64,000 nucleotides of DNA from Natrinema salsiterrestre (GTDB lineage Archaea > Halobacteriota > Halobacteria > Halobacteriales > Natrialbaceae). Of this stretch, positions 6,479-17,751 are shown piece after piece. Below the pieces are notes generated by a model. That model ran no database searches. It saw only the letters and a program-made list of their open reading frames with translations, and was not told where the DNA came from. The stretch's first letter is position 1, and each line of letters begins with the position of its first letter. Location: NCBI RefSeq assembly GCF_029502005.1, contig NZ_JAMQOT010000001.1, forward strand, positions 186,001-250,000, read 5' to 3'. A program made the translations under genes and the position numbers.

Positions 6479-7924
6479 TCACCACAGCTCGAGTCGCGAA
6501 CTGCGGACGACGCCTCTGATCGTGACGCGGAGTTTTCGGCTGATGGCCGCCAGCGTGAGGCCGTACACTGCCGCACCCAGCGCGACGATCGCGAGGAGCT
6601 GATACCAGTGATCGATTGTGGCGGCGCGCTCTAGCGGGACGATGACGGCGAACATCACGAGCCCGGCCGCGAGCTGTTCGCCGAACGTCCGCGGGAACAG
6701 GACGACCGTCGACAGCTCGCGCTTGACGACGACGGCGGAGAGGGCGTAGCGGAGGGTTTCCGCGACGACCGTCGCGACGACGACGCCGATCGCGCCGTAG
6801 GCGAGCGTCAGCGCGACGCCGAGGGCGACGTTGATCGCCAGCGTCAGCGCCGAGATCCGCGTGTTGACGTCCGGTCGGTCGATCCCGTAGAGCACGCTCG
6901 TGAGCACGCCGGCCTGCGTCTTCGCGATCTGGTACGCCGCGAGTCCGACGAGCAGCGTCGCGGCCGCGGCGTACTCCGACCCGAAGAGCGTCACCACGAG
7001 TCGTTCCGGCATCGCGACGGCTCCGAAGAACATCGGGATCGCGATGATGCTCGTAAACGAGAGCGTGTTCGAGACGTCGGTCCCGAGCGTCTCGCCCTCG
7101 CTGTGACGGCGGCTCACGCGAGCCATCAGCCCGCTCGAGGCGGCCATCGTCACGAACGTCGCCGGGACCGTGAGCTTGAGCGCGACCTCGTAGTGGCCGG
7201 CGGCGGCGGGTGCGAGCAGGTAGCCCAGAAGGATGATGTCGAAGCGGTCGTAGGCCTGCCCGAGAAACGAGTTCGGAATGCTGTACCTGGCGTACGACCA
7301 GAGGCTCGCGACGGTCTCTCGAGACGGAGCGACCGGCCGCGTTCGGACGAAGTACCAGAGGACCGGAACCGTCAGGAACGTCGCGGCGGCGAGTCCGTAG
7401 GCCATGCCGGCCGCGCCGAACCCGATCAGGATCAGGCCCAGTTGGATCGGGAAGGTGAGCACCGATCGAAGCGTGTCGGTCCACATCGAGGCCCCGACGC
7501 GGCCGCGCGCCTGGACGATCAGATCGAGCGGTTCGAAGAGCGTGACCGCGAACAGCAAGAGGACGAACAGTATCGGCGCTTCGGGGAGCCCGGTGTAGGA
7601 GACGAGCCGGTTCGAGGTGATGACGGCAACTACCACGGCGAGTGCCATCCACACCAGCGTGAACAGGCCCTGACTGCCGATCAGCTCCCCCGACGGGGCG
7701 TCGGCCTCCGAGTACCGCTTCTTGACCGCCGTTCCCCACCCGTTGACCGCCCGATCGGCGATCTTCACCAGCGAAAAGAGGAGGTAGTAGCCGCCGAACC
7801 CGGTCGGCCCGAGCGCCCGCGCGAAGACGATCGTTCCGAGAAAGCCGATCGCGGCCATCGTGAACTTCGCGGCCGTCGCCTTGACCGTCTCGCCGCCGAG
7901 ACTGACCGACGTCGCATCACTCAT
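6479..7924 (-). CDS. Polysaccharide/oligosaccharide flippase (Wzx/RfbX-like)
   Basis: A 481-residue membrane protein of the MOP superfamily, expected to flip lipid-linked sugars across the membrane. About 12-14 hydrophobic helices are visible, beginning with AAKFTMAAIGFLGTIVFA and GPTGFGGYYLLFSLVKI, the usual start of the polysaccharide biosynthesis family. It is the last gene of the minus-strand surface-glycan cluster, 99 bases after the sulfatase-like gene. It is the only flippase in the cluster, which suggests lipid-linked oligosaccharide or polymer export. The actual sugar substrate is unknown. Confidence 0.9.
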   Translation of the reverse strand: MSDATSVSLGGETVKATAAKFTMAAIGFLGTIVFARALGPTGFGGYYLLFSLVKIADRAVNGWGTAVKKRYSEADAPSGELIGSQGLFTLVWMALAVVVAVITSNRLVSYTGLPEAPILFVLLLFAVTLFEPLDLIVQARGRVGASMWTDTLRSVLTFPIQLGLILIGFGAAGMAYGLAAATFLTVPVLWYFVRTRPVAPSRETVASLWSYARYSIPNSFLGQAYDRFDIILLGYLLAPAAAGHYEVALKLTVPATFVTMAASSGLMARVSRRHSEGETLGTDVSNTLSFTSIIAIPMFFGAVAMPERLVVTLFGSEYAAAATLLVGLAAYQIAKTQAGVLTSVLYGIDRPDVNTRISALTLAINVALGVALTLAYGAIGVVVATVVAETLRYALSAVVVKRELSTVVLFPRTFGEQLAAGLVMFAVIVPLERAATIDHWYQLLAIVALGAAVYGLTLAAISRKLRVTIRGVVRSSRLELW

Positions 7925-8023: not shown

Positions 8024-9433
8024 TCACAGATACCCCAGCTCCTCGAGCTGGGACTCGAGCCCGGAGAGATCGGCCTCGGAGAGGCCCTCGCGCCGCTCGA
8101 GGTCAGCGACCCGCCGATCGAGTTCCGACTCGAGGGCCGCCGGGTCGCAGTCCCCGATGGTGCGGTTCTCGGTCAGATCCTCGAAGTAGTAGCAGTCGGC
8201 CGTCGCGAGCGCGTGGCGTTCGGTGTCGACCGGGGCGACCTCGTAGCCGTCCTCCTCGAGCGAGAGTCGCCGCCGTCTGGAGATCCCGTGGAACTCCGCG
8301 AGCGCGCTCGATCGCGGCTCCAGCGCGGGCGGATCGCTCGAGAGCAGCGGCCGGACCGATTCGCCGCGACGACGGTCCGTCTCGACGCCGGCGAGGTCGA
8401 GCAGCGTCGCGTAGACGTCGAGGTGGTTCACGAGGGCGTCCCGCGTCGCTCGCTCCCCGTTCGCATCGGGCGTCCGATGGTCGGCGCGCGGTCCGGGTGC
8501 GGAGACGACGAGCGGGACCGTCATGACGGGCGGGTAGAGCCCGCTGCCGTGTTCCCACGCGCCGTACTCGCCCAGGGCCTCGCCGTGATCGGCGAGCGTG
8601 ACGATGTAGTCGAACTCGGCGGCGAGTTCCGCGTAGATGTCCCGGTAAATGTCCGACAGGTATCGGACGGCGTCGTCGTACGCGGTGGCGATCCGCGCCG
8701 GATCGTACGGCGGTTCCTCGAGCGTGGCTTTCACGCCGTCGAAGTGCGGCGGGTCCTCGTCCGGATCGGTTCGGTACTCGTCCGGCGGGTCGTACGGCCG
8801 ATGGGCCTCCATGAGGTTCGCGAAGAGGAATTCGCGTTCGCGGTTCCACGACCGGTCGCGAACGTACTCGAGCAGTTCCGCCGCGCCGTCGTCGCGGTGG
8901 CGTCCCTTGAGCCCCATATCTCGGAGCTTCATCAGGGCCCCCTGTTTCAGCGACTGGGTCGTGTCGCAGTCGCCGTCGACGCACCGCCAGACCGCCCGGA
9001 GGTACCGCTCCGGTCCCGCGGACTGGTGGTCGGCGATGAAGGCGTCCCAGTCGAAGACGTTCTCGCCGAGGCCGCGGAGCCGCCAGCCGCCGTCGAACTC
9101 GTCGAATCCGTGGTGCCAGCCCAACCGTTCCGAGACGTTGACGTTACAGCTGAACGCGCGCGTCCGATAGCCGCGGTCCCGGAGGAGTTCGGGGAGGCGC
9201 GTCGTGTGTCGGTCGAAGTCCTGCGATTTGATCGTCACGCCGGCCTCGCTCGCGTACAGGCCGGTGAACAGCGAGGCGTGGGCCGGTGCCGTCCAGTGGC
9301 TCGTGCTCCACGCGTTCGCGAACTGCACGCCCGGTAGCCAGTCGAAGTGCTCGTTGAACGAATCCGCTCGAAGCGTATCGAGCACGACGAGGGCGATCGA
9401 CGGGTCGTTTCCCATGGTCGCGGTTCCGCTCAT
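8024..9433 (-). CDS. Sulfatase-fold hydrolase/transferase with Thr in the nucleophile site
   Basis: A 469-residue member of the alkaline-phosphatase superfamily. The metal-site LDTLRAD is near residue 15 and ADHGEALGEYGAWEHG is in the second half, as in sulfatases. The nucleophile loop reads SHWTAPAHASLFTG: the C/S-x-P-x-R formylglycine motif is replaced by T-A-P-A-H. Thr is the usual nucleophile in phosphodiesterase and phosphotransferase members, so sulfate ester cleavage is not assured. The protein ends in LEELGYL. The start at 9433 (MSGTATMG) is preferred; a later ATG at 9415 is possible. It sits between the pyruvyl-transferase-like gene and the flippase. Confidence 0.88.
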   Translation of the reverse strand: MSGTATMGNDPSIALVVLDTLRADSFNEHFDWLPGVQFANAWSTSHWTAPAHASLFTGLYASEAGVTIKSQDFDRHTTRLPELLRDRGYRTRAFSCNVNVSERLGWHHGFDEFDGGWRLRGLGENVFDWDAFIADHQSAGPERYLRAVWRCVDGDCDTTQSLKQGALMKLRDMGLKGRHRDDGAAELLEYVRDRSWNREREFLFANLMEAHRPYDPPDEYRTDPDEDPPHFDGVKATLEEPPYDPARIATAYDDAVRYLSDIYRDIYAELAAEFDYIVTLADHGEALGEYGAWEHGSGLYPPVMTVPLVVSAPGPRADHRTPDANGERATRDALVNHLDVYATLLDLAGVETDRRRGESVRPLLSSDPPALEPRSSALAEFHGISRRRRLSLEEDGYEVAPVDTERHALATADCYYFEDLTENRTIGDCDPAALESELDRRVADLERREGLSEADLSGLESQLEELGYL

Positions 9434-9572
9434 CCTACCAGACCCCTCACAAAGAACCTGCCCCCGGCAGGAGAACGGAACGCGGTATTGCACGTCGGTT
9501 CCGGCCGGGAGGATACCGTTTCGACCCGGAGCGTCACCGAGGGCGCTATCGGCCGTCGGTTCCCGGTCATAC

Positions 9573-10583
9573 TCACAGCACCGTCGCGATCCCGTCCTCG
9601 AGCGCCTCGACCTGCGCTTCTTTCTCGCGCTCGAGGGCGTCCATATCGAACCGAACCGGCTCGCTCGTGACGTCGCCGTCGATGGGGACCCGATCGAACA
9701 GGTTCGCTCGCGGCGTCTCGAAGTAGAACTGCGCCCTGTTGCCGTAGGTCAGGGCGGGGAGACAGGCGTGGATCCGGTCGGAGCGCACTACGTCCGCGTT
9801 GGCGTAGAGGAAGAGGTAATCGGTCACGAGATCGGAGACGAAGGCGTTTTCGACCTCGAAGGGCGGCGTCTCGAGGCCGACCAGTTCCCGCGCCCGTTCG
9901 CCGACAGGGAAGTGGTACGGTTCGTCGAAGGGGGCGTGATCGGGTCTGATGACCGTCCGCGAGCCGCCGACGTCGGGCTCCTCTTCCTTGTCGAACGTAT
10001 GGACGTCGAACGCCCGATTCGCCTCGGGCGGCCGGTGACGGTCGCCCAGGAACAGCGAGCAGTCGATGCCGTCGTACAGGTACTCGACGAGGTCGCCGTA
10101 CTCCTCGTAGGCGGTCCGGTCCCGCGTGAGCAGGACATCGATGTCGAGCGCGTCGAACACGGCCTCGACGTACCGCCGTTCGTCGTCGTCGTACTTCTCG
10201 CCGCCCCCGCCGACGACGACGATCGGAACGTCCCGCTCCCTGAGCTGTCGGAGCGTATCGAAGTACTTCCGGAACGTCGGTCTCGAGAGGACACAGCCCG
10301 GGAGGACGGCCAGATCGGCGTCGATCAGCTCGCTTATATGCACCGTGTTCCGTCGAAGCGGGTGCGTCGGCGATTCGTAGGTGGATCGATCGTACCCTGT
10401 CATTCGCGCGAGCTTCCGGGTGCCGCCCCACAGCGCCGCGGTGTCCGACGCGTGGTTCGGATAGCCCCCCGTTTCGACGATCTCGGCGTCGGGAAACGCG
10501 TTCTCGAGCATCGCCCTCGCCCCGTAGTCGATGAAGCCGTTCCCGATGTTCGTCGTCCACGTCCGCAGAAGCAGGATTCGCAT
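9573..10583 (-). CDS. Polysaccharide pyruvyl transferase family protein
   Basis: A 336-residue protein beginning MRILLLRTW at the ATG at 10583. The N-terminus has the NIGNGFIDYGARAML pattern of the polysaccharide pyruvyl transferase family, followed by VLPGCVL, the Gly-rich VVVGGGGEKY, and in the C-terminal half VVRSDRIHACLPALTYGN, where the SDRxHA segment is characteristic. Members transfer pyruvate ketals to surface sugars. A TATA-like box at 10610-10617 and a palindrome at 10596-10609 precede it, so it likely starts its own transcript with the sulfatase-like gene. Donor and acceptor are unknown. Confidence 0.85.
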   Translation of the reverse strand: MRILLLRTWTTNIGNGFIDYGARAMLENAFPDAEIVETGGYPNHASDTAALWGGTRKLARMTGYDRSTYESPTHPLRRNTVHISELIDADLAVLPGCVLSRPTFRKYFDTLRQLRERDVPIVVVGGGGEKYDDDERRYVEAVFDALDIDVLLTRDRTAYEEYGDLVEYLYDGIDCSLFLGDRHRPPEANRAFDVHTFDKEEEPDVGGSRTVIRPDHAPFDEPYHFPVGERARELVGLETPPFEVENAFVSDLVTDYLFLYANADVVRSDRIHACLPALTYGNRAQFYFETPRANLFDRVPIDGDVTSEPVRFDMDALEREKEAQVEALEDGIATVL

Positions 10584-10595
10584 TGCGGACCCCTC

Positions 10596-10617
10596 CACCG
10601 GAACCGGTGATAATTAT
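10596..10617 (-). promoter_or_regulatory. Promoter with palindrome before the pyruvyl transferase-like gene
   Basis: Reading the minus strand, ATAATTATC (10609-10617 on the plus strand) is a good TATA box 26-34 bases before the start codon. Between it and the start lies a perfect inverted repeat, CACCGG-AA-CCGGTG at 10596-10609. A palindrome placed between TATA and the transcription start would suit a repressor. Confidence 0.5.
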
Positions 10618-10731
10618 GGAGGGGCTACACCCCGCTATCGTCCCATTTAGACATCTGGGGCGAGTTCGAACGGGACGCTAGGGCATCGATATCGACCCGA
10701 GAAGCCTTCGAATCGAGGCTCGATCCCGGTG

Positions 10732-11649
10732 TCAGTCGAGATAGCCGAGTTCGCGCAGGCGGTCGGTGGGCATATCGATGTCCTCGTCGGGGCCGGTCGC
10801 GTCCGTACCCGCGTCCCCAGCACGTTCTTCCACCCACCGTCGCACGTCGTAAACCGAGTCCGGGCAGGTCTCGGCAGTGGAACTCGCGTACGCGCGCCAG
10901 GAGTGACTCGCCGGCTTCTCGCCCGCGTCGGGCGGGTAGAACGCGGCGCGCATGCCGTGATCGCTGACGACGAGGAGGTCGTCGTCCTCGCCGAGGGCGG
11001 CGACGATCTCTTCGACGAACTCGCCGACGCGGTCGTAGGCGCGGCCCAGTGCGGCCTCGTCGTCGGCGTAGGCGTGGCCCGCCGCGTCCAGCGTGTGGAC
11101 GTGAACGCCGGCGATCGAGACCGGGTGCGCGAGCATCTCGCGGGCCCAGCCGAACTGCTGGGCGCAGAGCCCGAACAGCTCGCGCTCGAACTCGCGGCGT
11201 GGCATCCCCTCCGCCACGGCGTTCATCAGGTCCCAGGCGCGCTGGAGCGGCCGGCCGTCGTGGACCCCCGGCCAGTTGTGGACGACCGCGTCGTCGGCGT
11301 CGAACATCGACTCGCGGTCCGTCTCGCCGATGCGCTCGCGCGTACCGGTCCGCGATCGAACGAGTTTGCCGAGGGTCCCTCGAGTCGATTCGTCGAGGCG
11401 GCCCGTGACCGTCGACGCGAGATCGAGGGCTGGGTTCGCCCACTCGCTGGTGCCGCCGCCGGTGATCCCGTGTTCGGCCGGCTCGAGCCCGGTCGCGACG
11501 GTCGCCCAGACCTCCGGCGTGTACGGGACGGCCTGCGTGTTCGCGAACGTCTCGATCTCGCCGCCCGACTCGAGGCGGACGGCGTCGAGGTCGAAGTGAT
11601 CGACCAGCCCGGCGTCGAGCGCGTCGAGCGCGAGGACGACGACCGTCAT
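10732..11649 (-). CDS. Alkaline-phosphatase-superfamily phosphodiesterase (type I PDE/NPP-like)
   Basis: A 305-residue protein whose ATG at 11649 overlaps the stop of the upstream sulfatase-like gene by four bases. It starts with VVVLALDALD (metal Asp), has the Thr nucleophile segment PYTPEVWATVATG near residue 50, HTLDAAGHAYADD (Asp and His ligands) and VVSDHGMR. This is the type I phosphodiesterase/nucleotide pyrophosphatase pattern. It ends in LRELGYLD, like the other sulfatase-fold proteins here. It is the last gene of the overlapping six-gene operon. Substrate unknown; cleavage of a sugar-linked phosphodiester is one idea. Confidence 0.88.
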   Translation of the reverse strand: MTVVVLALDALDAGLVDHFDLDAVRLESGGEIETFANTQAVPYTPEVWATVATGLEPAEHGITGGGTSEWANPALDLASTVTGRLDESTRGTLGKLVRSRTGTRERIGETDRESMFDADDAVVHNWPGVHDGRPLQRAWDLMNAVAEGMPRREFERELFGLCAQQFGWAREMLAHPVSIAGVHVHTLDAAGHAYADDEAALGRAYDRVGEFVEEIVAALGEDDDLLVVSDHGMRAAFYPPDAGEKPASHSWRAYASSTAETCPDSVYDVRRWVEERAGDAGTDATGPDEDIDMPTDRLRELGYLD

Positions 11650-12767
11650 GCGTATCCTAAATCCTCCAGATCCTCCTGCAGCGCGTCCTCCTTGACGACG
11701 TAGGCGGGATCGAACCGCTCGCGTTCCCGCTCGAGAGAGGGATCCTCGACTCTCTCGCCGTCCTCGAGGCGATACGTGCCGTCGCCCGTCGCGATGTGAT
11801 CGGCGGTCATCGCGGCCTTTCGATCCCCGTAGGCGGCGAATGCGGTTTCCCGATCGAGCGTGCCGACCCCGTGTTCGCTTCCCGTCAGGATCGTCGGGAC
11901 GTCGACCAGCGAGACGACTTCGCCGAGATCGGGGGCGTTGCGCGTCCCGAACGGGACGTTCAGGAGTTCGGCGCGCATCTCGCCGGGGTGGCCCCACAGT
12001 CCGTCCTCGCCGAGCAGTTCGCCGTGATCGCCGCAGAAGACGACGCGCGTGTCGTCGGGAATCGCGGCCCACAGGCGCTCCAGACGGTCGTCGAGGTCGG
12101 CGATCTCCCGTCGGTAGAGGTCGCGAACGGCGGCCTCGTCCTCCTCGGACCCGCGACCCGAGAGCACGCGGCGGCTGAGCCGCTGTGCCGTCGCCCGGTC
12201 GACGTCCGCGCCGTCCGGATCGTAGGGATGGTGCGGTTCCATGAAGTGTAGCCACCCGAACCACTCCTCGCGGTCGTCGATCTCGGCCAGGAACTGGTCG
12301 ACGACCTCGTCGGCGGGTCGGAACGATTTGTTCGTCTCCTCGACGTAGCTCCGGAGTTGCTGGTATCGGTTGTAGCCCCAGCTCGCTATCTTGTAGGGGA
12401 ACGAGCCGCGCTCGAGCAGGATTGCACCCTTGTCCTTCAGCGACTCGCCGCCGCCTTTCGGCGACGTGAACGAGTCGAAACCGGCCGCGTAGCCGTACTC
12501 CGCGGACAGCAGGTGGTTGGTCGTGATCCCGACGCAGCGGGCGTCGAACGCGCGGGCGACGCTCGCCGCCGACTCGAGGCCGTCGCCGGTCGGATACTCG
12601 CCGCCGATGATCGCCGGGAAGCTGCCGGGCGTCGCGGTGCTCGTGGCGAAGGCGGCGTCGTGGGTGTCCTCGAGGAAGTCTCGTGTGGTGGGCATGTACT
12701 GGACGTGGTCGGTTCTGAGCGAGTCGACCGTGACTAACAGTGTCGTCTCCGTCGCGTGTTCGGTCAT
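11646..12767 (-). CDS. Sulfatase-fold protein (alkaline phosphatase superfamily)
   Basis: A 373-residue protein with VTVDSLRTDH near the N-terminus and GDHGELLGEDGLWGHPGEM for the second metal site. The nucleophile loop is STATPGSFPAIIGG; aligned to its neighbour it keeps a Thr where sulfatases have Cys or Ser and has no Arg. HFMEPHHPYDPD is the usual sulfatase core segment. It ends in LEDLGYA. Both ends overlap neighbours by four bases. It is shorter than most sulfatases (450-550 residues). Activity on sulfate is doubtful; binding or phosphotransfer is possible. Confidence 0.88.
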   Translation of the reverse strand: MTEHATETTLLVTVDSLRTDHVQYMPTTRDFLEDTHDAAFATSTATPGSFPAIIGGEYPTGDGLESAASVARAFDARCVGITTNHLLSAEYGYAAGFDSFTSPKGGGESLKDKGAILLERGSFPYKIASWGYNRYQQLRSYVEETNKSFRPADEVVDQFLAEIDDREEWFGWLHFMEPHHPYDPDGADVDRATAQRLSRRVLSGRGSEEDEAAVRDLYRREIADLDDRLERLWAAIPDDTRVVFCGDHGELLGEDGLWGHPGEMRAELLNVPFGTRNAPDLGEVVSLVDVPTILTGSEHGVGTLDRETAFAAYGDRKAAMTADHIATGDGTYRLEDGERVEDPSLERERERFDPAYVVKEDALQEDLEDLGYA

Positions 12768-14209
12768 AGGTATCCGAGATCCTCCAGTCGGGCGCGGCTC
12801 GCCGCGTCGACATTCTCGGCGAACGCCCGTTCGCCGTGGTCGTCGTCAGTGACCCACTCGCCGAAGGCGGACTCGAAGAGCCCCTCTGGGACCGTCTCCT
12901 CGGGGCGTTCGGTCTGCTTCGACGGCGGCCCGGAGACGTCGTACACCGCCTCGGTGCCGAGCCGGTCGCGGTAGTACTTCCGATCGCGCCGATAGACGAC
13001 GCGCTGTCCCCGATCCCAGTAGGACTCGTCGCCGCCCTCCGGGATGCCGGAACCTGATCCCACGATCTCGGCGCGAGCACGTTCTCGCTCGAAAGCGAAC
13101 GGATCGAACGGGTCCCCGCTCGCCAGCGACCGGATCACGTCACCGAGGTCGGCGTGGGAACTGAGCCCGTTCACGTCGACGGGGCCTCGGTTCCCCGGCT
13201 CGAGGACGCCGTCACCGGTCGCGACGACGTCGAACGGGACGTGCAACAGCCCTTCCGAGAGACTGCTCATGTGGTTCATGAGGTAGCCGTCCGACTCGTA
13301 GCCGAGGTTCTCGCCGTGATCCGCCGTCACGATCAGGATCGACTCGCGGTCGTCACCGGCCGCCAGCGCGGTCACGAGATCCGCGACGACCCGGTCGAGG
13401 TAGTCGACCGTCGCGGCGTACAGCCCGCGGACGCGTTCGACGTCCGATTCGAACTCGCCGAGGCCCTCCGCGGCGTTCACGTCCGAGTCCCGAAACGAAC
13501 TCGAGTGGAAACCGGCGGAGACGCCGTGGATCGAGTCGTCCAACCCGCGAAACGGGGTGTGTGGACCGTGTGCGTCCATGAAGTTAGCGAAGGCGAGCAC
13601 CGGACCGTCGGGTTCGGTGACCTCGCGCTCGAGCGTTCTCGCGATCGCCCGGCCGCCGAAATCGGTCGGTTTCTCGATCGGGAGCTTCCGGCTCACGTCG
13701 TCCAGTTTGAGGAGGACGCCGTTGCACAGCGACTGCAAGGGATGCTCGTGCGCGAGGGCCTGACGGACGAAATCGGCGTAGGCCTCCACGCCGTCGGTCG
13801 AGCGGTCCGAGATGTGCTGCTGGACGTCCATCCCCGCGGGAAGCCGGCGACTCGGCGAGATGGGGACCGTGCGATCGAAGAAGCGGTCGAACCCGAAGAC
13901 GGGGCTGGCGTAGATGTTCGACGTGACGCAGACCGATTCGTACCCCGCCCTCGAGAGGGGCGCGATCCAGGTGTCGTCGACGTCGATCGGATCGAACCGG
14001 CGCTGGCGCGCGTGGACGCCCGTTTCCGACGGAACCGATCCCGTCAGCATCCCGGCGTGACTCGGGACGCTCCAGCCGGCCAGCGCCCGCATGCCCTCGA
14101 ATCGGACGGCCGCCAGCTCTCGGAGACGGGTCGCGTACCGGTCGTAGACGTCTTTTCTGACGGTGTCCAGACAGAGGACGACGACGTTCGGTCGGTCTCT
14201 CCCCGTCAT
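12764..14209 (-). CDS. Sulfatase-fold protein with Ser in the nucleophile site
   Basis: A 481-residue protein from the ATG at 14209, overlapping the upstream glycosyltransferase by four bases. VVVLCLDTVRKDVYD opens the fold; the nucleophile loop is GWSVPSHAGMLTG, so Ser is kept but the Arg of C/S-x-P-x-R is His; NFMDAHGPHTPF and VTADHGENLGYE give the remaining core. It ends in LEDLGYL. No formylglycine-generating enzyme or anaerobic sulfatase-maturating enzyme is in the window. An open frame extends far upstream, but that part belongs to the glycosyltransferase in another frame. Confidence 0.88.
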   Translation of the reverse strand: MTGRDRPNVVVLCLDTVRKDVYDRYATRLRELAAVRFEGMRALAGWSVPSHAGMLTGSVPSETGVHARQRRFDPIDVDDTWIAPLSRAGYESVCVTSNIYASPVFGFDRFFDRTVPISPSRRLPAGMDVQQHISDRSTDGVEAYADFVRQALAHEHPLQSLCNGVLLKLDDVSRKLPIEKPTDFGGRAIARTLEREVTEPDGPVLAFANFMDAHGPHTPFRGLDDSIHGVSAGFHSSSFRDSDVNAAEGLGEFESDVERVRGLYAATVDYLDRVVADLVTALAAGDDRESILIVTADHGENLGYESDGYLMNHMSSLSEGLLHVPFDVVATGDGVLEPGNRGPVDVNGLSSHADLGDVIRSLASGDPFDPFAFERERARAEIVGSGSGIPEGGDESYWDRGQRVVYRRDRKYYRDRLGTEAVYDVSGPPSKQTERPEETVPEGLFESAFGEWVTDDDHGERAFAENVDAASRARLEDLGYL

Positions 14210-15294
14210 GTGAACTCCTCGAGTGCGGCGCTGAAGCGTTCCCGCTGGTTCGATTCGGTCAGGTCGGTGACGAGGCTCCGCTGGTCGCTCCCGAGGGATC
14301 GTCGGTCGGTCGGTGAGAGGTCGGAGAGAGCCACCAGTCCGTCGAACAGGCCCGTCTCGGTCGGCGGGACGACCTGTCGAGCCGGCAGGAGCTCCCGGAC
14401 GCCGGTCGCTTCGGTGACGATCGTCGGCGTTCCCGAGAGGATCCCCTCGAGCGCGGCGACGGGAAACGCGTCGCCCCGAGACGACTGAACGTAGACGCTC
14501 GCGCGGTCGAACCAGTCGGCGAACGCGTCCAGATCGACGAACCCGGGCGTGACGACGTGGGGCATGGCGGCGTACGGCTGCTCGTCGTGCCCCGCACCGA
14601 GTGCCACCAGCCGAACGTCGGCCTCGACGGTCCCGGCGAATCGCTCGACTGCCAGCGCGAGCCGGTCGTAGCCGTTCGCGGGTTTGGCTTCGCCCGCCGA
14701 GAGGATCGTAAACGGGTCCGCGGGTGATCGAGGGGTGAGCGACGCGAGGCGGTCGTACTTCTCGTCGGCGATCGGCGGCCGGACGATCGCGGTCGGAACG
14801 TCGCCGATGTACGGTCGCGCCCAGCGGGAGGCGTCGCGGCCGACCGCGATCACGCCGTCGAGCAACCGACTCGAGAGCGGCTCGAGCGCGCGCCAGAGGT
14901 ATCGCGTCGGCCGCTCGGAGAGGGTGTAGAACGTCTCGTCCGCGGCGAGGTAGATCAGGGTCGTTCCCGGCCGGCGCAGTTTGTACGCGAGCCCGGTCTG
15001 GAGCGGCGCGCTCCCCTCCGCGATGACGGTCTCGTACGCCGGCAGCGTCCCGGCGGTTCGGAGCCGATCGACCGTCCGCTCGGTGTTGCCGCCCGGTTCG
15101 GGCGGTCGTTCCCCGGTCTCGAAGTGGCGTCGATCGGCGCTCACTGCGTCGGCGAAGACTCGATGTGCGGGGTGTGCGTCGCTGTTCTGATAGAGCAGAC
15201 ACCGATCGCTCGTCGCCCGTCGCGGGCGCGACGGTCCGGTCTCGGTCCGGCCGTCAGCGTCGGCCGGCTCGTGCGTAGTCGTCTTCGCCGTCAT
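14206..15294 (-). CDS. Glycosyltransferase, GT4-like
   Basis: A 362-residue GT-B fold enzyme. The C-terminal half has VYVQSSRGDAFPVAALEGI, the conserved nucleotide-sugar site with the E-x7-E-like spacing partly altered (Asp in place of the first Glu), followed by GTPTIVTEATGVREL. The N-terminal 25 residues are a charged extension before CLLYQNSD. It overlaps both neighbours by four bases. Expected to add one sugar to a lipid-linked or surface glycan on the cytoplasmic side. Donor sugar cannot be told. Confidence 0.88.
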   Translation of the reverse strand: MTAKTTTHEPADADGRTETGPSRPRRATSDRCLLYQNSDAHPAHRVFADAVSADRRHFETGERPPEPGGNTERTVDRLRTAGTLPAYETVIAEGSAPLQTGLAYKLRRPGTTLIYLAADETFYTLSERPTRYLWRALEPLSSRLLDGVIAVGRDASRWARPYIGDVPTAIVRPPIADEKYDRLASLTPRSPADPFTILSAGEAKPANGYDRLALAVERFAGTVEADVRLVALGAGHDEQPYAAMPHVVTPGFVDLDAFADWFDRASVYVQSSRGDAFPVAALEGILSGTPTIVTEATGVRELLPARQVVPPTETGLFDGLVALSDLSPTDRRSLGSDQRSLVTDLTESNQRERFSAALEEFT

Positions 15295-16547
15295 CGATCA
15301 CTCGCCTCCTCGAGCTCGCGGGCGTCGTCGGCGTCGACAGCCGGCGGTGAGACGTCCCCGACACGGTGTCCTCTTTCGAGTCGGGTCGCGTCCCTCGTGC
15401 ACTCGGATCGCCGGCCTCGTTCCGATTCCGGGACGTCGCTGTCTGCGACTGCGTCTCCTTCGATAACCTCGCGGAGCCCGTCCGCGAAGCGGTCGTACTC
15501 GTAGCGCCTCGCTTCGGCGCTGATCTCTGCCGGGTCGAAATCGGCGGGATCGAACCGCCGAACCGCCTCGCGTAGGGATCCGACGGTCGGTTCGAAGAGC
15601 AGCCCGGTCCGTCCGCTCTGGACCTGGTACCGCGTGAACCCCTCGTCGACGCCGAGGAGGGGTTTGCCGGCCATCATGGTCTCGGCCCCGACGAGACCGA
15701 AGTCCTCCTTCTTGGGCGCGTAGACGACCGCAGTGGCCCGCGCGACCAGCGACTCGATGTCCGCGACGTACCCCCGCACCTCGATGTTGTCGTAGTTCGC
15801 GGCGATGGCCTCGAGTCGCTCGCGCTGTTGTCCGTCACCGGCGATCACGAGCCGTTCGTCGAGTCCCGCGAAGGCTTTTGCGATCAGATCGATCCGTTTC
15901 TCGGGGGCGAGTCGGGACCACGTGAGGAAGTAGCCGTCGTCGCCGTCGTTGCGCCAGTCGCCGGTCACCGGCGGATAGACGACGCTGGCGTCGCGGCCGT
16001 AGAACCGCCGGATCCGATCGCGGACCAGTTCGCTGTTCGCGACGAAGCGGTCGACGTAGTCGTTGGCCTCCTTGTCCAGCGCCCGCCACGCTTTCGCGTA
16101 CGCCTTGAGCCCCGTCTCGACGAACGGGAGATCGAACGCCGAGAGCCGATCCCGATAGAGGTCGTACAGCCACCGCGGCGGGCTGTGGGGGTAGTGGACG
16201 ATCCGTTGACCGACCGCAGGGACGTAATATTTCGACAGCGGCGCGCTCTCGAGGATTACGTCGTACTCGGTGAGGTCCTCGTGGGCGTCGGTCATGTCGA
16301 GTGCCACGTTCAGCGTTTCGAGTGGATTCATGCCCTCGTTTTTCCACTCGAGGAACGGTCGCCACGGGAGCGACGTGTACTTCGATTGCCGGAACGGGAT
16401 CACCTCGACGTCGTCGGGGATCGGCGTTCCCTCGGCGACGTAGGTCGTGTAGATCGGTGCGTCGAGCACCCGGGCGGCCTCGATGGCGAACTCCTCGCCG
16501 CCGCCGATGCCGGGGAACCGATCGTGCAGGATCGCCACGTCGGTCAC
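15291..16547 (-). CDS. Glycosyltransferase, GT4 family
   Basis: A 418-residue protein starting with GTG at 16547, which overlaps the upstream stop by four bases and so decides the start. VAILHDRFPGIGGGEEF at the N-terminus and SRLAPEKRIDLI, VIAGDGQQ and KKEDFGLVGAETMMAGKP in the second half mark a retaining GT4 enzyme with an intact E-x7-E (EDFGLVGAE). The last 60 residues are a charged tail. It is the second gene of the six-gene overlapping operon. Confidence 0.92.
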   Translation of the reverse strand: MTDVAILHDRFPGIGGGEEFAIEAARVLDAPIYTTYVAEGTPIPDDVEVIPFRQSKYTSLPWRPFLEWKNEGMNPLETLNVALDMTDAHEDLTEYDVILESAPLSKYYVPAVGQRIVHYPHSPPRWLYDLYRDRLSAFDLPFVETGLKAYAKAWRALDKEANDYVDRFVANSELVRDRIRRFYGRDASVVYPPVTGDWRNDGDDGYFLTWSRLAPEKRIDLIAKAFAGLDERLVIAGDGQQRERLEAIAANYDNIEVRGYVADIESLVARATAVVYAPKKEDFGLVGAETMMAGKPLLGVDEGFTRYQVQSGRTGLLFEPTVGSLREAVRRFDPADFDPAEISAEARRYEYDRFADGLREVIEGDAVADSDVPESERGRRSECTRDATRLERGHRVGDVSPPAVDADDARELEEASDR

Positions 16548-17707
16548 TGTAACACCTCCCGGAGCTCCCGGTCCGGCGACCAGGTGCCGTCGTGGGTGTC
16601 GTCGTCCTCGGCGGCTCGAGCGCGCAGCAGCGAGATGCTCGCACGGAACAGCGAGATCTGAGCGTCGAACAGGGAGTACAGCGGCTGAGCGGGACCGAGC
16701 GCGTCGCGAGAGCCGAGCACGGTGAAGGCGAGGATGCCGGCCGGCGTCGCCAGTCCGACGGGACCGAGGATGGCCAGCGATCCGACCGTCGCCACGGCGA
16801 TTCCGGTCGCGACGAGACACGGGGACACGATCATGAACCACCAGTTGAACGGCAGGACGACGCGGCCGTAGGCCCCGTGGCGACCGAGGGCGTCGCGCTG
16901 TCGCCACAGCAGTCGCAGGAGCCCCATCGCCCGTCGATCCTTCTGCCGGCGGCGCTTGCCGAACGCGGAGTGAGCCGCCTCCTTGTAGTGGATCTCGGGA
17001 TCGAAGACGACTCGACCCCCGTTGCGTCGAATCTTTAGCGCGAGTTCGGTGTCGTCGGCGATCGAGTCCTCGTCGATCGGGACGATGGCATCCCGCTCGA
17101 ACGCCGAGAACGGCCCGTGGAAGATCAGCGTCGAGTCGATGTGGGACTCGAGGACCTGAATTATCGTCTGGACGTCCCGATACCCTCGCTCGACCTCGCT
17201 GTCACCGAGGACGTCGGCGTTGCGGCCGGTGACCGCGGCCACGTCGGGATCGGCGAGGTTCGCGGCCGCTCGCCGGACCGCGTCCGACGCGAGCCGCGAG
17301 TCGCAGTCGGTCTTGACGACGACCTCGTTCGACGCGGCCGCGTAGGCCTCGTTCAGTGCGGGCGCGAGTCCCTCGCGTTCGGCCGTCCGAACGAGCGTCA
17401 GGTCCGGCTCGGGCCGACCGGCGAAGAAGGTCTCGACCAGCTCCGCCGTCCCGTCGTCGCTCGAGTCGACGACGACGATCTCGACCCGGTCCATCGGATA
17501 GTCGAGTTCGACCAGCTCCTCGAGTTTCGACTCGACGATCGCCGCTTCGTTGTACGTCGGCAGGACGATACTCACCGACGGCTCTCGGGGCCACGTGTGG
17601 GCGGGCGTTCCCGAAGGGCGGCTGACGTAGTAGACGCCGAGGTAGATCAGATACGGAAGGCCGGTCAGTGCAACCAGTCCGAACAGAGCCTCGAGGAGGC
17701 GCTTCAT
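16544..17707 (-). CDS. Membrane-bound glycosyltransferase, GT2 family
   Basis: A 387-residue protein from the ATG at 17707; an earlier TTG at 17722 would add five residues. Residues 1-25 form a membrane helix. The GT2 domain follows: SIVLPTYNEAAIVESKL, VVDSSDDGT, KTDCDSRLA (DxD) and DDTELALKIRRNGG near the acceptor site. Two or three C-terminal membrane helices (about 280-345) anchor it. This is the architecture of hyaluronan-synthase-like and dolichyl-phosphate-sugar-type enzymes. It is the first gene of the operon, with inverted repeats in its upstream region. Confidence 0.92.
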   Translation of the reverse strand: MKRLLEALFGLVALTGLPYLIYLGVYYVSRPSGTPAHTWPREPSVSIVLPTYNEAAIVESKLEELVELDYPMDRVEIVVVDSSDDGTAELVETFFAGRPEPDLTLVRTAEREGLAPALNEAYAAASNEVVVKTDCDSRLASDAVRRAAANLADPDVAAVTGRNADVLGDSEVERGYRDVQTIIQVLESHIDSTLIFHGPFSAFERDAIVPIDEDSIADDTELALKIRRNGGRVVFDPEIHYKEAAHSAFGKRRRQKDRRAMGLLRLLWRQRDALGRHGAYGRVVLPFNWWFMIVSPCLVATGIAVATVGSLAILGPVGLATPAGILAFTVLGSRDALGPAQPLYSLFDAQISLFRASISLLRARAAEDDDTHDGTWSPDRELREVLQ

Positions 17708-17751
17708 GCGAGTACGCCTCAACGGTCAACGGTTCGCTGCAAAGCCAGATG

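Follow-up and report, generated by a model that had tools for sequence, protein, structure and literature searches.

What do four enzymes of the alkaline phosphatase (AP) superfamily do in a surface-glycan operon when none of them has the formylglycine motif of a sulfatase? The question is raised by a 64,000-nucleotide stretch of the Natrinema salsiterrestre genome (G000:C11:186001-250000; the window hereafter means this whole stretch), in which the four genes, here called S1 to S4, lie between positions 8024 and 14209. A sequence-only reading had proposed that they move or cut phospho-groups on surface glycans rather than remove sulfate. We consider S1 to S3 to be, probably, AP-fold glycan sulfotransferases of the Agl30/Agl31 kind, which would belong to a pathway marked by a shared C-terminal tail and may draw adenosine 5'-phosphosulfate (APS) as donor from a CysD-like protein in this genome. 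The four genes and the positions discussed below are as follows.

8024..9433, minus strand: S1, PF00884 AP-superfamily protein, start ATG at 9433 or 9415, Thr42 in TAPAH, tail LEELGYL
9290..9292, minus strand: codon of S1 Thr42 (463-residue numbering), at the formylglycine Cys position
8027..8047, minus strand: C-terminal tail LEELGYL of S1
10732..11649, minus strand: S4, PF01663 AP protein resembling nucleotide pyrophosphatase/phosphodiesterase (NPP), Thr44, full two-metal ligand set, tail LRELGYLD
11518..11520, minus strand: codon of S4 Thr44
11646..12767, minus strand: S2, PF00884 AP protein, Thr46 in TPGSF, tail LEDLGYA
12630..12632, minus strand: codon of S2 Thr46
12764..14209, minus strand: S3, PF00884 AP protein, Ser47 in SVPSH, tail LEDLGYL
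14069..14071, minus strand: codon of S3 Ser47

Inspection of the four nucleophile loops (TAPAH in S1, TPGSF in S2, SVPSH in S3 and TPEVW in S4) bore out the sequence-only reading: DHG was present in all four proteins and C/S-x-P-x-R in none. Three of them have Thr and one, S3, has Ser at the nucleophile position, and the motif Arg is replaced by His in S1 and S3, by Phe in S2 and by Trp in S4. The label of sulfatase fold suited S1, S2 and S3, which matched PF00884 (Sulfatase) with 88, 44 and 58 bits respectively, but not S4, which matched PF01663 (Phosphodiest) with 50 bits. In 39 aligned S1 orthologues Thr42 is invariant and His46 nearly so; all S3 orthologues have Ser, and those of S2 and S4 have Thr. 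Because the residue is invariant within orthologue groups, it reflects neither chance nor sequencing error. A profile hidden Markov model search of PDB sequences, which could have revealed a Cys at this position, aligned Thr42 of S1 with choline sulfatase Cys54, and His46 with the Arg of its CxPxR motif. By profile alignment and spacing, Lys102 of choline sulfatase corresponds to the invariant Asn91 of S1, and Lys309 to the invariant His289. The metal residues Asp13, Asp276 and His277 are retained and invariant, and His205 occupies the position of choline sulfatase His201. In a quick tree of 120 sequences, with several long branches, all Cys-type sulfatases formed one clade, and a single change between Cys and Ser/Thr suffices. 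Among the PF00884 sulfatase-like proteins of the genome, Cys is kept only in two separate genes, L003 (CSSAR) and L008 (CSPSR). No formylglycine-generating enzyme (PF03781) was found in the whole genome by a search that did not extend to radical-SAM anSME.

A precedent is provided by Halobacterium salinarum Agl30 (VNG1056C) and Agl31 (VNG1057C), AP-superfamily proteins of the aglB cluster that sulfate the N-linked tetrasaccharide, as shown by deletion and by expression in Haloferax volcanii (Zaretsky et al. 2025, PMC11980604). The nucleophile and the sulfate donor are undiscussed in that paper, and 3'-phosphoadenosine 5'-phosphosulfate (PAPS) is nowhere mentioned. The published primers encode DFGHLDM, ITDRTV and the C-terminus HLEDLGYL for Agl30, the C-terminus LEELGYT for Agl31, and VHYFQPH and KELGYIE for VNG1063H. 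In our genome the counterpart of Agl30 (L117:16941-17921, in the aglB cluster) has DFGQLDM, ITDRTV and HLRDLGYM, with Ser rather than Cys at the equivalent position. Relatives of Agl30 (alignment A3) share the invariant residues Asp59, Ser84, His170, Asp240, His241 and His253 in the same order as S1, with no nucleophile Cys; Ser84 is equated with the nucleophile by order and spacing, the nucleophile loop having been skipped in the profile comparison between S1 and the Agl30-like proteins. The S1 orthologues of Haladaptatus, Halomicrococcus and Halegenticoccus have an Agl30-like gene immediately upstream, the arrangement also of VNG1056C-VNG1057C. S1 to S4 share with Agl30 and Agl31 the superfamily, the annotation as sulfatase or alkaline phosphatase, the location in a glycan cluster and the LGY tail. 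The window operon, however, lies apart from the aglB cluster of the genome and contains three or four such genes: aglB (L118:4876-7782) is at about 172.9-175.8 kb of C11, and S1 to S3 are at about 194-200 kb.

The aglB cluster itself (L117:15798-17921 and L118:140-1609 on G000:C11, about 17-20 kb before the window) has two tandem Agl30-like genes, then a Ser-type (SLPSH) AP gene and then aglB. An attempt to assign Agl31 orthology through the primer peptides NGAEIK and NYIQAA was given up, as their agreement with the S1 columns is mostly limited to G, K and N, too weak for a claim.

The tail connects these enzymes with sulfate activation. S1 to S4 terminate in LxxLGY with one or two residues after it, as do the other Ser/Thr AP proteins of the genome and, according to their primers, Agl30, Agl31 and VNG1063H. 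The tail is present on almost every intact Ser/Thr-type AP protein from haloarchaea that was examined, and L-x-x-L-G-Y is invariant in 93 distinct haloarchaeal AP tails gathered by their LG[YF] ending. The clearest tail-less exception among full-length haloarchaeal sequences is one S2-like protein (L082), and both Cys-type AP genes of the genome lack an LGY tail. When the whole genome was scanned with one DNA pattern for LxxLGYx-stop (exactly one residue after the Tyr, Leu codons CTC or CTG), six matches were obtained, one of them not C-terminal. The five true ends belong to one CysD-like PP-loop protein and four AP proteins: S1, the one next to aglB, one that is Agl30-like and one that is PF01663-like. 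The S1 tail is predicted to form a weakly anchored helix (pLDDT about 60-65), and its conservation in spite of this suggests a role in binding rather than in structure.

The CysD-like protein (L175:8838-9872; G000:C23:284838-285872, minus strand) ends in MERLRDLGYM. Its best match was CysD, the sulfate adenylyltransferase subunit (E 1e-23; PDB 1zun), and it occurs in 55 of 59 Halobacteriales genomes. In all 30 loci that were read the tail is kept, and MERLRDLGYM is invariant except at one position. From end to end the protein and E. coli CysD (sulfate adenylyltransferase subunit 2) are collinear, but it terminates in RLRDLGYM instead of KKRQGYF; the tail scores were 28.7 for the CysD-like protein, a median of 28.7 for the AP proteins and -13.9 for E. 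coli CysD. Tandem or second copies of the CysD-like gene are present in G060, G070, G125, G134, G195, G201 and G216.

Genome-wide profile searches found no full-length APS kinase, no PF01747 ATP sulfurylase and no PF13469 sulfotransferase in the N. salsiterrestre genome. The PF01583 matches seen in most genomes, which mostly span about 50 positions and score 20-28 bits, were rejected as P-loops, and the match in our genome looks like an FtsY-type GTPase. The APS/PAPS reduction route has been reported absent from Natrinema J7-2 and other haloarchaea (PMC3402447). Among 31 genomes, G394 and G021 alone have APS kinase, PF01747 and PF13469 together, and PF01747 occurs nowhere else. Their APS kinases carry a C-terminal extension of about 50 residues that ends in ERLEELGYLEE or ERLKNLGYL, and both APS kinase loci also hold tailed Ser/Thr AP genes and ATP sulfurylase. 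In G394 the order is AP-x-AP-ATP sulfurylase-APS kinase, adjoining aglB, with a tailed PF01663 protein in the same locus. The tail was absent from four other APS kinases, those of E. coli, Priestia, Dolichospermum and a Haladaptatus plasmid, and a search of phages and viral contigs with APS-kinase queries yielded nothing further. Three unrelated folds thus share the tail, two of them sulfate-activating, and one locus brings APS kinase and tailed AP proteins together. The sharing of this tail by AP proteins and sulfate-activating enzymes is a new observation. The two rare loci (L185:538-12470 in G394 and L184:5730-11243 in G021) contain a P-loop sulfotransferase too, and G021 is without the CysD-like protein.

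The predicted model of S1 (pLDDT 89) superposed best on carbohydrate sulfatase BT1596 (5g2u; Z 32.9, root-mean-square deviation 2.9, 339 residues aligned) and on ulvan sulfatase (6hhm; Z 32.6, deviation 3.9, 369 aligned), matches within 1 Z being counted as tied. The same two structures were published as best matches for Agl30/VNG1063H and Agl31 (PMC11980604). For the S1 model, formylglycine (type I) sulfatases of SulfAtlas family S1 scored at Z about 29-33, and the match includes the C-terminal subdomain. What S1 shares with the carbohydrate sulfatases of that family (BT1596, FA22070 and choline sulfatase) is the whole fold, the Asp/Asp/His metal site and the His201 position; what differs is Thr/Ser for Cys, His/Phe for Arg, Asn for Lys102 and His for Lys309. 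Taken with the pairing of its histidines to those of EptA, the model suggests that in S1 the body of a sulfatase carries an active site like that of a transferase. No P-loop sulfotransferase domain (PF13469 or PF00685) was matched by S1 to S4 in Pfam.

In the mechanism we propose, a divalent metal with two Asp and one His as ligands would activate the unmodified Thr or Ser. This residue would take the sulfuryl group from APS (or from PAPS where it is made) to give a sulfo-enzyme, and a sugar hydroxyl would accept the group from the sulfo-Thr/Ser. In sulfatases the formylglycine sulfo-enzyme undergoes hemiacetal cleavage, as described for choline sulfatase (PMC5870055); because this cleavage is impossible without formylglycine, transfer would be favoured over hydrolysis. 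Since neither APS kinase nor P-loop sulfotransferase was found in the genome, the donor may be APS. The LxxLGYx tail would mark the transferases and the activating enzymes (the CysD-like protein, and APS kinase where present). It probably docks the members of the pathway, either to one partner that they share or to one another, which would keep the APS maker near the transferases. S4 may be one more transferase, or it may deal with the nucleotide that is left over.

S4 is the member whose role is least certain. Judged by its sequence, it is an NPP/phosphodiesterase-type member of the AP superfamily outside the sulfatase family. Its profile finds NPP (PDB 2gsn), with which it shares the Thr nucleophile and the full two-metal pattern, and the seven positions (Asp9, Thr44, Asp188, His192, Asp230, His231 and His249) are conserved in 13 relatives; unlike NPP, it is shorter, carries the LGY tail and resides in a glycan operon. 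In a mixed cluster S1 to S3 would be sulfotransferases, and S4 a nucleotide pyrophosphatase/phosphodiesterase with the task of removing the nucleotide product or editing lipid-linked intermediates; this falls within the sulfotransferase proposal and is a real possibility, although we would not bet on it. The S4 gene overlaps S2 by 4 bp, and S4-like genes adjoin S1 in Haloarcula and Halosimplex, which fits such a partnership. However, S4 has the same LGY tail as the proposed transferases, and there is the tailed PF01663 protein in the G394 sulfation locus, which could mean that S4 transfers sulfate too. A phosphodiesterase role for S4 is nevertheless quite possible, and here the phospho-group role put forward by the sequence-only reading is still a fair possibility.

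For S1 to S3, that role is no longer the first choice. Thr/Ser AP phosphotransferases or phosphodiesterases that move phosphoethanolamine, glycerol-phosphate or sugar-phosphate onto surface glycans would, like EptA/MCR-1 and LtaS, have a Thr nucleophile, DHG, a His 13 residues past the DHG Asp and an upstream His. DHG, His289 and His205 of S1 do pair with EptA (the latter two at its His468 and His385 positions; the Thr region falls outside the aligned span), EptA/MCR-1 chains are among the profile and fold matches, and S4 with its seven conserved two-metal positions is NPP-like. Nevertheless, we regard this explanation as unlikely: the nearest folds to that of S1, also in its C-terminal subdomain, are carbohydrate sulfatases, the EptA group being less similar, the tested class members Agl30 and Agl31 sulfate glycans (PMC11980604), and the tail ties S1 to S4 to sulfate-activating enzymes. 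The genetic context also differs, and S1 lacks the N-terminal membrane domain of EptA and LtaS; as read from sequence without a topology program, S1 to S3 have no N-terminal multi-pass membrane domain and open directly with the AP core.

Remodelling sulfatases that hydrolyse sulfate esters with an unmodified Ser or Thr would agree with the carbohydrate-sulfatase fold of S1 and the PF00884 matches, but we find them improbable. Because the formylglycine motif is missing from S1 to S4, ordinary sulfate removal is unlikely, as the sequence-only reading had argued. In choline sulfatase, kcat/KM falls about 4000-fold on the change Cys54Ser; this change and His104Ala each cost some three orders of magnitude or more, and Lys102Leu leaves no activity (PMC5870055). 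The residues of S1 at the positions of Cys54 and Lys102 are Thr and Asn, and these replacements, together with His for Arg and His for Lys309, are all conserved. Moreover, the two genes with CSSAR and CSPSR keep the Cys elsewhere in the genome, and Agl30 and Agl31 add sulfate. Non-catalytic AP-fold glycan-binding proteins are very improbable, for although catalysis by S1 to S4 is only predicted, no result favours binding without it, and neither the metal ligands nor the nucleophile vary among 39 S1 and 13 S4 relatives.

Several points weigh against S1 to S3 being sulfotransferases. The activity assigned to S1 to S4 is predicted from sequence, a model and analogy. Where alignable, Asp13, Thr42, His205, Asp276, His277 and His289 of S1 match the Thr-nucleophile transferase EptA, and the model of the Agl30-like protein (pLDDT 82) superposed equally on EptA/MCR (Z 15.4, deviation 3.0, 199 aligned) and on arylsulfatase (15.0). 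Agl30 and Agl31 are represented here by their primer peptides, with the Agl31 nucleophile outside them, and the orthology of S1 and Agl31 is suggested by position, tail and fold. A mass shift of +80 Da, as in the heterologous assay, would not by itself tell sulfate from phosphate, although nuclear magnetic resonance had defined the native glycan as sulfated. As for the tail, the genome-wide count depends on the narrowness of its single pattern, small ribbon-helix-helix-like proteins (L047, L062, L082 and L117) bear it as well, and tailed APS kinases are few (n=2). The GY of the CysD-like protein is inherited from canonical CysD (KKRQGYF), so the new part is LxxL alone, and its putative identity as a sulfate adenylyltransferase was judged on the CysD subunit.

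More tentatively, haloarchaea may possess a PAPS-free sulfation in which a CysD-like protein makes APS, AP-fold Ser/Thr enzymes transfer the group via sulfo-Thr/Ser, and a docking tail (also on a few APS kinases) joins the partners; Ser/Thr AP proteins of this sort that are annotated as sulfatases in Planctomycetota, Acidobacteria and Myxococcales could then be sulfotransferases as well. Sulfated S-layer glycans have been known since the 1980s; if the proposal is true, their donor and enzymes become testable. A C-terminal tag shared by activating and transferring enzymes would then be a new pathway architecture and a simple sequence marker for its members. Databases call S1-type proteins sulfatases, so if these add sulfate, a large haloarchaeal and bacterial gene class is annotated in the wrong direction.

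The stretch 8024-14209, in which four enzymes had been described, does contain the four AP genes but also a fifth gene, and further glycan genes flank it.

6479..7924, minus strand: flippase (Polysacc_synt), which comes after S1
9573..10583, minus strand: polysaccharide pyruvyl-transferase-like (PPT) gene inside the operon, weak PF04230 match (25.7 bits against a cut-off of 25.3)
14206..15294, minus strand: GT4-type glycosyltransferase (GT), overlaps S3 by 4 bp
15291..16547, minus strand: GT4-type glycosyltransferase, the most widely conserved S1 neighbour (about 70-87% identity)
16544..17722, minus strand: GT2-type glycosyltransferase, distal operon gene

Overlaps of 4 bases chain GT2, both GT4s, S3, S2 and S4, which are followed by PPT, S1 and the flippase. 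S1 is 89% identical to its counterparts in Natrinema altunense and N. pallidum. Because the order GT2-GT4-GT4-S3-S2-S4-PPT-S1-flippase is kept across Natrinema and Haloterrigena, and shortened versions occur in Haladaptatus, Halalkalicoccus and others, we treat it as one conserved glycan operon.

The idea that the tail is exclusive to sulfation proteins was dropped on account of the ribbon-helix-helix-like proteins. These end in LGYLE or LGYLK (L117:10039-10350, minus strand; L047:16452-16922; L062:2433-3041; L082:17426-17800), and the one in our genome (L117) lies about 6 kb from the Agl30-like genes. In Planctomycetota and uncultured bacteria (L108, L110, L112 and L114), Thr-type (TLPSH) LGY-tailed AP genes were observed near Cys-type (CTPTR) sulfatase genes, and such neighbours could pair the addition of sulfate with its removal.

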